Below, piece after piece: positions 17,029 through 22,662 of a stretch of 64,000 nucleotides of DNA. Source of the stretch: a bacterium (GTDB taxonomy: Bacteria; Desulfobacterota; Desulfocorpusculales; Desulfocorpusculum); contig JBBFLE010000013.1 of assembly GCA_037481695.1 (NCBI GenBank), positions 1 to 64,000 on the forward strand, in the 5' to 3' direction. Each line of letters opens with the position of its first letter. The stretch's first letter is position 1. The position numbers and the translations under genes were made by a program. The notes under the pieces are model-generated. The model was given only the letters and a program-made list of their open reading frames with translations. It did not search any database and had not been told where the DNA came from.

Positions 17029-17104
17029 TGGAGCGGGCAACGGGCCTCGAACCCGCGACACCGAGCTTGGGAAGCTCGTACTCTACCAACTGAGCTATGC
17101 CCGC
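17029..17104 (-). tRNA. tRNA-Gly (anticodon CCC)
   Basis: A complete cloverleaf reads on the minus strand. The acceptor stem GCGGGCA pairs with TGCCCGC. The D-arm is GCTC / GAGT, the anticodon stem CGAGC / GCTCG with loop TTCCCAA, and the T-arm GCGGG / CCCGT around TTCGAGG. The discriminator base is T, as usual for tRNA-Gly, and CCA is encoded at 17029-17031. It would decode GGG. It lies directly upstream of rimP, analogous to tRNA-fMet (metY) upstream of rimP in E. coli. Confidence 0.95.
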
Positions 17105-18933: not shown

Positions 18934-19216
18934 CTCCACAGGCAGCAATGAATACTGGGCACCCAGCTATATCCCCATGGGAACATGATTCTTCTTCCTC
19001 AAGCTTCCAAGGTGCGCCTTTTCAAGCCTGGGGACGGTCTTGGAGCCTCATACAAGTCCTTGGGAAGCCCTGGAAAGTAAAATCCCAAGAGCGTCTTTGT
19101 TGGCCGCAATGGCCACCAGGATCATTGTAAACTTTGGCGCCCAGAGCCCAGTCCTTGTATGAAGGGCTTTGCCTCAAGTATGATACATGATGTTCTTTGG
19201 GAAAAGGGTCCAAGAG

Positions 19217-20620
19217 ATGGGATCAAGGCCTAGGCACAACAGATGCACTGTGGTGGGGCTCCTGCTTTGTTTGCTTGCTGGAGTAACATGGGCAGGCTGT
19301 GCCCCCACGGTGAAAAAAGCCGAGGAGTGGCTTACTCCCTCTGTGAAGAGTGAGAAGGAGATGGGAAGGGAGTTTGCCCAGGAGGCAGCCAAGAAGCTCT
19401 CACTGGTGGAAGATCCTGACATCCTGGAGTATGTTGCGCACATAGGAGCCCCCATAGTGGAAGCAGCCCAGCCTATGACCTACAGATTCCGCTTCCACGT
19501 GGTTAAGAGTCCAACCCTGAATGCTTTTGCGGTACCAGGAGGCCATATCTATCTATACAGCGGGCTTCTTCTCAAGGCCCGCCATCCAGGGGAAATAGCC
19601 GGGGTCATAGCCCACGAGCTGGCCCACGTCAAGCACCGTCACACTGCTCAGATGATAGGCAAGGGCACCCTGGTAAATCTGGCCACCCTGGCTGCCATCT
19701 TGATATCTCGTGGAGAGCCCGCTGTGACAGCAGGAGCGGCCGGAGCGGGGATGGCCATGCAGTTGAGCTTTACTCGGGAGTTTGAACAGGAGGCCGATCG
19801 GTATGGCCTCTTCTATTTGTACCAGGCAGGCTATGACCCCAACGGTCTTCTGGATTTTTTCGAAATGATGATGAGGGAGCAGCGCTTTTCCATAAGCCGA
19901 ATCCCTCCGTACCTGCTGACCCATCCCTTGAGCACAGAGCGAATGGCCCAGATAGAGAGCCTTGTCCAGATTCACAGACTGCAGGTGACACAGCCAAGGG
20001 AGCTTGCGGACTTCCACAGATTCCAGGCGTTGCTTCAAGCCGAGGTGTCCGGCGCCACTCAGGTGATCCCCCTTTTTCAACAGCGTGTGGAGGAGAATCA
20101 GGCGGACGCCAAGGCCTGGCATCAGTTGGGACTCGTCTATTTACGTTACGGCTGGGTGAAGGAGTCATTGCAGGCCCTTTCCAGATCCCTGGAGTTGGAT
20201 CCTACTCTGGCATCAGCGTGGGCCGACCTGGCCATGCTCCAGGCTCGGATGGGTCGTTGGGAGGAAGCTCAAGCTCTCTTCCAGAAGGCATTGGAGTTGA
20301 GGCCTGAGCACGGCCCTTTTCTGGCCAAGATGGGAGAAGCTCTAGTCCAGAAAGGAAGTCCCTCGGAAGCCTTGCAATTCTTGGACAGAGCCCTGGCTGC
20401 AGATCCACTCCTCATAAGAGCCCATGAGATGAGAGCCAGGGCCAAGAAAGACCTTGGGGATGATGGCGGCTTCCATGAGGACATGGCCAGTTTTCACGAA
20501 AAAATGGATCGCACGGTGGAGGCCTTGAAGCACTTCCGCTTGGCCATGAAGGCATATGGGGAAAAGAGCCCCAAGGGCGAGGAGATGCAAAGAAGAATAG
20601 AACAACTCAAGGCTTCCTGA
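19217..20620 (+). CDS. M48 metallopeptidase lipoprotein with TPR domain (BepA-like)
   Basis: A 467-residue periplasmic zinc peptidase. The N-terminal hydrophobic segment ends at a lipobox (WAGC). The M48 motif is IAHELAHVKHRH, with the third-ligand Glu in FEQEADRYGLFY. At least four TPR units fill the C-terminal half (KAWHQLGLVYLRYGWVKESL, SAWADLAMLQARMGRWEEAQ and so on). This layout is that of BepA/YfgC, which controls the quality of outer-membrane assembly and LptD. The ATG at 19217 has AAAAGGG 8 bases upstream; an ATG at 19187 has no visible site. A second, polytopic M48-TPR gene lies at 33019. Confidence 0.9.
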   Translation: MGSRPRHNRCTVVGLLLCLLAGVTWAGCAPTVKKAEEWLTPSVKSEKEMGREFAQEAAKKLSLVEDPDILEYVAHIGAPIVEAAQPMTYRFRFHVVKSPTLNAFAVPGGHIYLYSGLLLKARHPGEIAGVIAHELAHVKHRHTAQMIGKGTLVNLATLAAILISRGEPAVTAGAAGAGMAMQLSFTREFEQEADRYGLFYLYQAGYDPNGLLDFFEMMMREQRFSISRIPPYLLTHPLSTERMAQIESLVQIHRLQVTQPRELADFHRFQALLQAEVSGATQVIPLFQQRVEENQADAKAWHQLGLVYLRYGWVKESLQALSRSLELDPTLASAWADLAMLQARMGRWEEAQALFQKALELRPEHGPFLAKMGEALVQKGSPSEALQFLDRALAADPLLIRAHEMRARAKKDLGDDGGFHEDMASFHEKMDRTVEALKHFRLAMKAYGEKSPKGEEMQRRIEQLKAS

Positions 20621-20748
20621 TTAGGGCTTGGCTCTGGAATCCAAATCCCAAGTGATGTTAGGGTCCATGCTCATGAACAAGTCGACGGCAAAGGGGTTAA
20701 TGTATCCTCTATGAGCACATTTTCACCTTGGAGAGTAGTCCCATAGCC

Positions 20749-22101
20749 ATGAAAAGCACATCAGTTGCAAGCCAACGTGCACGCCTGCAAGTTTTTGTAG
20801 CCATGGGGGTGCTGGGGATTTGTTCGGGGGGGATGCTGCTTCGTCTGGAGCCCTTTACCACCTGGTATTATGCCATGGCTTGGTGGCCTTTTATATTCAT
20901 CATGGATGGGGTTGTGTTGTGGAAAAAAGGGAATTCTCTTTTTTGGAGGAATCCAAAAGAGTTTTTCTCCCTGGCAATGCTGTCTATTCCTGTTTGGCTT
21001 TTTTTCGAGATTTACAACCTGCTATTGCAGAATTGGTACTATGTTGGCTCGAGCCGCTCCTGGGAGATGCGCTGGCTGGGATATATCATCTGCTTCGCCA
21101 CGGTTCTCCCGGCAGTGTTTGAAGCCCAGGAGCTGGTGGGTGCCATAGGGCTGGTCCCTGAGCTGAATACGAGACCTTTGCCCCAAGGGAGGCTCCTTGC
21201 ACCAGCGCTGATGGCAGCCGGCTTTCTCTGCCTGGTTTTACCTCTTTTAATACCAAGTTATGGATTCCCTTTGATATGGATAGCTCTGATATTTCTTCTG
21301 GAGCCCGTAAACAAGATCTGGGGACAACCCAGCCTCCTGAGAGAAATGGAAAGAGGATCCATCACCATGCCTTTAAGGCTTCTGGCAGGGGGACTTCTGT
21401 GCGGCCTCGCCTGGGAGCTCTTCAATTTTAACGCCCTTTGTAAATGGATCTACACAGTCCCTCATTTCGAGGAACTCAAGTTGTTTGAAATGCCCTTGGC
21501 CGGTTTCCTGGGTTTTCCTCCCTTCGCCTTGGAATGTTATGTGATAGTTCAGTTTATTAAGGGGATTATGCGAAGGGCCAAGACTGCGGCTATCAGGTGG
21601 AGTTGTGTGGGAATTACCTGTGTGGCCTCGGTGGGTGTTTTCCCATTACTGGACAAGTACACAGTGAATTCCGTGCACCCTCTTTTGGAAGATTTGAAGG
21701 ATTTAGCCCCCCAGGAAGCCAGGATCTTGGAACAAGCTGGTATCAAAAGGCTGGACCTTTGGGTGCTGAGGCCGGGGACTAGAGCAAGGGAATCCCTGGC
21801 ATTGGAGCTTCTAGGGGCAACCCCGGAGGTGGTGGCCAAGTGGCGCACCTGGGCGGCCATGGCCGCCTTGAAAGGTATGGGCACCCAGAATCTGCGACTC
21901 ATGATGGAAGCAGGGGTTTTCAAGCTGGGGGATCTGGCAAACCAAGAACCCCAAGCTCTTGCCAAGAAACTTGGTGAAATCCAGCAGATAAAGTCTTGGG
22001 CGAGGCAGACACCCAGAGAAGCCCAGGTTCGCCTCTGGGTCAGGGAAGCAAAGCGTATTTGCTCTGGGGAGGCTGAACCTGCATGGCCCGGCTGCAAGTG
22101 A
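20749..22101 (+). CDS. Polytopic membrane protein: duplicated membrane module plus DUF4332-like HhH tail
   Basis: A 450-residue protein of unrecognised family. It has about nine membrane helices up to residue 300, then a soluble helical tail. The membrane part contains an internal repeat: WPFIFIMDGVVLW ... FFEIYNLLLQNWYY ... LPAVFEAQE in the first half aligns with IALIFLLEPVNKIW ... AWELFNFNALCKWIY ... FPPFALECY in the second. The tail (RILEQAGIKRLDLW, KGMGTQNLRLMMEAGVFKLG) looks like a helix-hairpin-helix DUF4332-type domain. ATG at 20749 is preferred (GGAGAG upstream) over an in-frame TTG at 20728. The following gene begins 9 bp after its stop, so the two are probably co-transcribed. Function unknown. 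Confidence 0.75.
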   Translation: MKSTSVASQRARLQVFVAMGVLGICSGGMLLRLEPFTTWYYAMAWWPFIFIMDGVVLWKKGNSLFWRNPKEFFSLAMLSIPVWLFFEIYNLLLQNWYYVGSSRSWEMRWLGYIICFATVLPAVFEAQELVGAIGLVPELNTRPLPQGRLLAPALMAAGFLCLVLPLLIPSYGFPLIWIALIFLLEPVNKIWGQPSLLREMERGSITMPLRLLAGGLLCGLAWELFNFNALCKWIYTVPHFEELKLFEMPLAGFLGFPPFALECYVIVQFIKGIMRRAKTAAIRWSCVGITCVASVGVFPLLDKYTVNSVHPLLEDLKDLAPQEARILEQAGIKRLDLWVLRPGTRARESLALELLGATPEVVAKWRTWAAMAALKGMGTQNLRLMMEAGVFKLGDLANQEPQALAKKLGEIQQIKSWARQTPREAQVRLWVREAKRICSGEAEPAWPGCK

Positions 22102-22110
22102 GGAGGCAAG

Positions 22111-22662
22111 ATGGGTGAGATAAAAAGCAGTATCGAACTGGCCATGGAAAGAACCAAAGGGCTCACATTTACCGAAGAGGAAAGACAAAGGCTGCAAGAG
22201 GACAAGGAGCGAAGATTGGCCCAGGCCATCGTATCCCAATATCTGCGGGGAGAGATGACCCTTGAAGACTTGGAGAGAAAGAGGCTTCAGACCACCGGCT
22301 CTGCACTTCTGGCTTTGGATAGGGCCTTGGTGGAGAGTTTGAACATGAGCCCCGAGACCTTTCCCCTTGTGGTGGAGGCATTGGAGAGGCTTCTAGGAAA
22401 GGGCCACAGGGCGATATTGCAAAAGCTAAAGGACATCTCCATGGAGTGGGGCCAGCTCCTTCAGAAGCAAAGGCGCAAGATAAAGGCAGAGCTTCGAGAA
22501 GAGCTGGCCCGAAGAGGAGTGGGAGGATCAGCCGTGGTACCTTATGTAGAAGGCTCTACTGTTTGGAAAAAAAACGTGGAGGAGCTCTTCACCCGGTTTA
22601 GGGATCGGTTATTGGAGCTCCAAGGGCCCCTTGGAAAGGCCCTGGAGAGCTGCCAGCCTTGA
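22111..22662 (+). CDS. Conserved hypothetical helical protein
   Basis: A 183-residue, strongly charged, all-helical protein beginning MGEIKSSIELAMERTKGLTF. The central region (LLALDRALVESLNMSPETF) is amphipathic and the second half is Lys/Arg/Glu-rich, with coiled-coil potential around KQRRKIKAELREELARR. There is no membrane segment or signal peptide. AGGAGG lies 4 bases before the ATG, and the gene starts 9 bp after the membrane protein gene. I recall similar N-termini in hypothetical proteins of Desulfobacterota but cannot name a function. Confidence 0.7.
   Translation: MGEIKSSIELAMERTKGLTFTEEERQRLQEDKERRLAQAIVSQYLRGEMTLEDLERKRLQTTGSALLALDRALVESLNMSPETFPLVVEALERLLGKGHRAILQKLKDISMEWGQLLQKQRRKIKAELREELARRGVGGSAVVPYVEGSTVWKKNVEELFTRFRDRLLELQGPLGKALESCQP

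Follow-up and report, generated by a model that had tools for sequence, protein, structure and literature searches.

The gene at 20749–22101 on the forward strand of the window, the 64,000-nucleotide stretch of DNA analyzed here, encodes a member of a real, well-delimited and widespread membrane-protein family that has no name. Its membrane core is a confirmed duplication, and its C-terminal helix-hairpin-helix (HhH) tail is optional. About one third of the sampled genomes of the phylum carry the family, which has 21 invariant residues and a confident structural model, and for which there is neither a Pfam or NCBIfam model nor a fold match in the PDB.

The open reading frame is intact, running from an ATG at 20749 to a stop at 22101 (450 aa); an in-frame TTG at 20728 is an alternative start that would add seven residues. 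The parts of the gene and the adjacent features are given in Table 1.

Table 1. Features of the duplicated membrane protein and its neighbors in the window.
Feature	Position	Strand	Evidence or remark
M48 peptidase with TPR repeats, lipoprotein-like start	19187..20620	+	also upstream in a second genus (L114)
Complete gene (450 aa) for the duplicated membrane core and DUF4332 tail	20749..22101	+	ORF and translation; relatives in 107/297 same-phylum genomes
TM1, residues 6–30, N-terminus predicted inside	20764..20838	+	AF2/DSSP helix; K/R bias
Repeat A, TM2-TM3-TM4, residues 40–132	20866..21144	+	hhalign to repeat B, E 3e-8; invariants
Motifs of repeat A: W45, D53, S79, W83, FE87xxN90, W96xY98, P121			
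Copy A E-x2-N ... W-x-Y, residues 87–98, predicted TM3 outer end and outer loop	21007..21042	+	four residues conserved in 90/90
TM5, linker helix joining copies A and B, residues 150–167	21196..21249	+	AF2/DSSP
Repeat B, TM6-TM7-TM8, residues 169–276	21253..21576	+	hhalign; conserved residues
Motifs of repeat B: W177, C218G, WE223xxN226, [KR]W233xY235xxP238, FEMP249xxGxxG, P258			
Copy B E-x2-N ... W-x-Y, residues 223–235	21415..21453	+	four residues conserved in 90/90
TM9 (residues 280–304), then (I/L)DxxTV motif leading to the tail	21586..21678	+	AF2/DSSP
DUF4332 (PF14229) helix-hairpin-helix domain, residues 320–436, predicted extracytoplasmic	21706..22056	+	Pfam E 5e-16; topology in 28/28 tailed members
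C-terminal Cys pair C438/C449	22060..22095	+	tail comparison: window, L113, L114
183-aa soluble-looking gene, 9 nt downstream of the core gene	22111..22662	+	known families: none

The two-repeat membrane part proposed in the initial annotation is borne out, and the duplication of the core into two homologous copies is well supported. Profiles of residues 34–145 and 160–272, built from 90 relatives, align in hhalign with an E-value of 3.1e-8 (score 47.4), whereas in a control with 23 unrelated families of membrane proteins the half-profiles and the whole core score at most 22.3. Five pairs of identical residues, each conserved in at least 95% of members in both copies, are in register (W45/W177, E87/E223, N90/N226, W96/W233 and Y98/Y235), a count that was never reached when the conserved columns were permuted 100,000 times. 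P121/P258 are also in register (90/90 and 80/90 members, respectively). According to DSSP, both copies in the model have the same order of elements: a long helix, a short helix, a long helix, a strand at W-x-Y, and a broken long helix. As for the motifs that had been listed for the repeats, the Glu and Asn residues within the membrane helices are indeed conserved in both copies, whereas the P-x3-E acid and the SLxxR arginine are weaker. Residue E125 of copy 1 is Glu in 42 of the 90 members and E262 in 66, and the arginine has no in-register conservation between the copies.

AlphaFold2 models of the whole protein (pLDDT 93.9, pTM 0.92) and of residues 1–308 (pLDDT 95.5, pTM 0.92) were obtained, and nine long helices are seen. 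The predicted order is TM1, copy A (TM2–4), a linker helix (TM5), copy B (TM6–8), TM9 and an extracytoplasmic DUF4332 domain. Loop charges alternate along the window protein in a pattern that corresponds to an N-terminus inside, and each of the 28 tailed members has more K+R in its predicted inner loops than in its outer ones (mean 15.5 versus 4.5). This charge bias makes an inner-membrane protein with its N-terminus inside a well-supported prediction, and the presence of TM9 would thus place the tail outside the cytoplasm. Members without TM9 end after a short, often basic stretch behind TM8, which fits the same topology. Helix limits combined with this topology, rather than coordinates, put E87/N90 and E223/N226 at the probable outer ends of TM3 and TM7, with W-x-Y just beyond. 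Foldseek searches of the PDB returned nothing at E≤0.001 for the whole model or the core, and a fold search against a viral library gave no significant match.

A six-frame protein search of 297 same-phylum genomes found the membrane core in 107, mostly as a single copy; a pattern scan of genome contigs located one further relative in an Acidobacteriota genome (41% identity). The family alignment comprises 90 members, in which 21 columns are invariant: W45, S79, W83, E87, N90, W96, Y98, P121, W177, G219, W222, E223, N226, W233, Y235, P238, M248, P249, G252, G255 and F259. The invariant residue types of the core are W, E, N, Y, P, S, G, M and F, and never His, Lys, Arg or Asp. The window protein matches DUF4332 alone in Pfam and nothing credible in NCBIfam, nor does it match a defence-system family in PADLOC or a phage family in PHROGs. 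Each of the 90 members was scanned, and no Pfam or NCBIfam model was found for their membrane core, in agreement with the earlier view that this combination has no named family. A relation to YhhN, which had been put forward as a check, is not seen: PF07947 is unmatched by the protein at E≤1 and is not among the 22 matches listed for the 90 relatives at E≤0.1. Plasmids and viral contigs contained no relatives. The top three PDB entries by sequence are light-harvesting-type chains (E 0.02–1), which we judged to be chance matches.

The tail passes the Pfam threshold for DUF4332 (59.3 bits; cut-off 23.2), as the initial annotation of a DUF4332-like HhH tail had anticipated, and is the sole DUF4332 match in the window genome. 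The only sensible PDB partner of the model also concerns the tail and is the N-terminal HhH domain of RadA (probability 0.91, rmsd 1.3, E∼4). The tail had been described as normally soluble; the HhH domain stands, whereas its predicted location outside the cytoplasm gives that description a twist. Tails are mostly net basic in the sequences of the tailed members, which would allow binding of an anionic polymer. Both L113 and L114, the rows nearest to the window protein and the other members of its taxonomic family, are tailed and have the C438/C449 pair, a feature compatible with an oxidising compartment. In the literature searched, DUF4332 is mentioned once in passing, in a figure of a heliorhodopsin operon.

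The tail is dispensable. It is present in 28 of the 90 members, in at least two clades, while 33 members stop after TM9 with (I/L)DxxTV, 27 are without TM9 and two end otherwise, one of them with an apparently frameshifted HhH tail. TM9 and (I/L)DxxTV are kept in tailed and short-tailed members and are missing from the clades without TM9. The tails fall in a nine-member clade and a 25-member clade, the latter also with untailed members, and their distribution on the tree needs five changes. Two proteins within a tailed clade (L047:8946-10220 and L064:2695-3606) have a lost or apparently frameshifted HhH tail. Eighteen of the 27 members without TM9 form a single clade (SH-aLRT 98) with an extra N-terminal module of ∼110 residues and the motif YLEFPPxTxYVxHAPFSW, exemplified by L110:9607-10707 (− strand) and present in 17 more. 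This module is limited to that one clade and has no family match; its FPP...PFS loosely resembles the FEMP...PFA of copy B.

In the window, the core gene follows the M48-TPR gene and is followed by the 183-aa gene and, on the opposite strand, an MBL hydrolase. In L114, M48 lies two ORFs upstream, and a homologue of the 183-aa protein downstream precedes a 234-aa ORF on the opposite strand. The L113 contig begins near the core, which is accompanied by the 183-aa homologue and a 222-aa ORF on the opposite strand. The 183-aa protein is helical and has no match in Pfam, NCBIfam, PADLOC or PHROGs. It is encoded behind the core in the three genera sampled from the window's family and nowhere else among the loci compared; the suspected linkage to the gene at 22111 therefore holds inside this family but not outside it. 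The window's only tRNA is a tRNA-Gly (ccc) at 17029–17104 (− strand).

Elsewhere, the commonest neighbor is the cytoplasmic protein RimO (S12 methylthiotransferase), whose gene immediately follows the core gene in the same orientation in ∼20 loci from seven taxonomic families (including L117, L119, L127, L037, L054, L066, L058 and L060). It is missing beside the core in the window's family, and we set it aside as a functional partner in favor of conserved gene order. One representative of each neighbor cluster was scanned against Pfam. A LysM-NlpC/P60 cluster lies upstream of the core in eight loci, with a gap of 3–4 nt in most; the two genes look translationally coupled in one tailed clade (L082, L085, L092, L106 and others). 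A DsbC cluster adjoins the core in the same direction in five loci, and other envelope neighbors in that direction are patatin (three loci), MlaA (one locus) and M48-TPR (the window's family). Envelope proteins thus recur among the close upstream neighbors across several lineages. Further neighbors are an AP_endonuc_2 TIM-barrel cluster downstream (eight loci), a 5-FTHF cyclo-ligase cluster upstream (six loci) and, in one family, DUF1848 and a helicase. No competence genes were recognised among the core neighbors looked at. Since the neighbors vary, from cytoplasmic RimO to folate or sugar enzymes, the context fixes no pathway.

The weak likeness to lycopene cyclases (LC) suggested in the initial annotation did not hold up. 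At the level of motifs, both have a helix whose outer end carries an acid, followed after 9–10 residues by W-x-[FY] and next by a helix containing Pro; when copy B is compared with LC in hhalign, this acid/W-x-[FY]/Pro register is the one picked. One repeat also runs in a comparable way from a helix through a basic inner loop to the acid-ending helix, W-x-[FY] and the Pro helix. However, comparison of the core with LC profiles gave a probability of only 0.2–0.5%, with LC at rank 3 to 26 of 26 targets, no better than unrelated membrane families, although the shallow LC alignments limit the power of this test for very remote kinship. The LC set was drawn from ten PF18916 domain places, aligned as six CrtY-type domain copies and five LC-like proteins, with 23 membrane families as the null and three further PF18916 places left out. 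No PF18916 match was found in the window protein, its 90 relatives or the window genome, and no lycopene cyclase is among the PDB fold matches. LC repeats have P-[LVI]-E-E in their third helix (invariants P65, E67 and E68); the core lacks this motif and has LPAVF and FEMPxxG/GFPPFA instead. Moreover, squalene/phytoene synthase (SQS_PSY) is recognizable in 12 of the 107 carriers and absent in 95, the window genome included, and its co-occurrence with the core is at background (odds ratio 1.1, p = 0.84). A divergent heterodimeric cyclase of the CrtYc/CrtYd type (PF18916), with a carotenoid or another isoprenoid as its substrate, is therefore highly improbable. We reject a carotenoid-cyclase function on the basis of the background profile scores, the missing P-x-E-E and the lack of association with SQS_PSY, whose distribution also leads us to reject a carotenoid or triterpene substrate. 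Four loci (L141, L145, L146 and L148) contain single-chain PF18916 matches that are unlike CrtYc/CrtYd and have the motifs FTE..YPxYWxP..GFGIEDFLF and PLEELxYG; they are possibly a separate lycopene-cyclase-like family.

Beyond the family, duplication, high-confidence model and charge bias observed above, we propose, with a probability of roughly 0.35, that the core has an outward pocket in which an amphipathic envelope lipid is bound and then either altered or transferred, the HhH domain being an optional accessory module. The duplicated E-x2-N and W-x-Y, K/R232 and the FEMP loop may form one pseudo-symmetric pocket, which would open to the outer leaflet or the periplasm. The substrate, at a guess, is most likely of the phospholipid, polyprenyl-linked sugar or lipid A type. 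It would be modified or handed on by acid-base chemistry, putatively metal-free because the core has no invariant His or Asp. Our best guess for the role is that the protein handles a lipid or glycolipid of the outer leaflet in envelope maintenance; the HhH tail might be a periplasmic accessory module for a partner or an anionic polymer. The same-direction neighbors, which are often envelope proteins (LysM-NlpC/P60, DsbC, M48-TPR, patatin, MlaA), agree with this proposal, whereas RimO and the folate or sugar enzymes do not. As the family has no relative of known function and no PDB fold match, the pocket is one that we infer. It would be a tentative assignment to regard these proteins as a new class of membrane enzyme or lipid flippase, with an unsolved fold, one duplicated outward E/N/W/Y site and, sometimes, a periplasmic HhH domain.

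Two other functions were weighed against lipid binding. The parallel copies and linker helix (3+1+3, plus TM1 and TM9) could instead provide a route by which a small solute or a lipid permeates, as in PQ-loop/SWEET/PnuC proteins, where parallel three-helix repeats are likewise joined by one helix. Conserved polar positions extend from the inner (D/N53, D/E185, GxSL) to the outer side (E87, N90, W96, Y98), and the fold search with the core lists cystinosin and PnuC third and fourth, although far from significant. We nevertheless consider a transporter slightly less likely than the lipid-handling pocket: the TM-scores of 0.15–0.25 and rmsd of 14–16 Å indicate no shared fold, the transporter families of Pfam and NCBIfam are unmatched, and the many strictly invariant aromatics are more suggestive of a site for binding or catalysis. 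Somewhat less likely again is that the core is a membrane anchor or assembly factor, that is, a scaffold for the periplasmic HhH domain or partners with no chemistry of its own. The fusion of the tail in only part of the family, the conserved W/Y/P-rich outer loops, which could bind proteins, and the neighboring DsbC, M48-TPR and NlpC/P60, which are envelope quality-control and remodelling proteins, would suit such a role. However, tailless members retain every invariant residue, which a mere anchor does not need, and Glu and Asn within helices are costly to a scaffold.

Residues E87, N90, E223, N226, W96 and W233 are targets for mutagenesis and structure determination. An extracytoplasmic DUF4332 domain, if true, raises the question of which ligand an HhH module would have in that location.

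Among known systems, PQ-loop/SWEET/PnuC proteins share with the core two parallel three-helix repeats and a linker helix, but the best E-value is ∼1, TM-scores stay at 0.15–0.25 and there is no sequence-family match. PF18916 proteins likewise have two parallel membrane repeats, in which an acid close to a helix's outer end is followed by W-x-aromatic and a Pro-containing helix; they differ in that the core has the additional TM1, TM5 and TM9, and most carriers are without the carotenoid precursor enzyme. The tail has an HhH fold like that of the RadA N-terminal domain. Relative to the DUF4332 family, its peculiarities are the attachment to a membrane core of nine helices and a location predicted to be extracytoplasmic. 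PsbU is a lumenal HhH protein. ComEA is a periplasmic HhH DNA receptor (PMC3879209, PMC9747964). Both are examples of HhH domains that function away from the cytoplasm, but neither has a polytopic core such as that of the window protein, whose tail, compared with ComEA, has its extracytoplasmic location predicted from the K/R bias in 28 of 28 tailed members.
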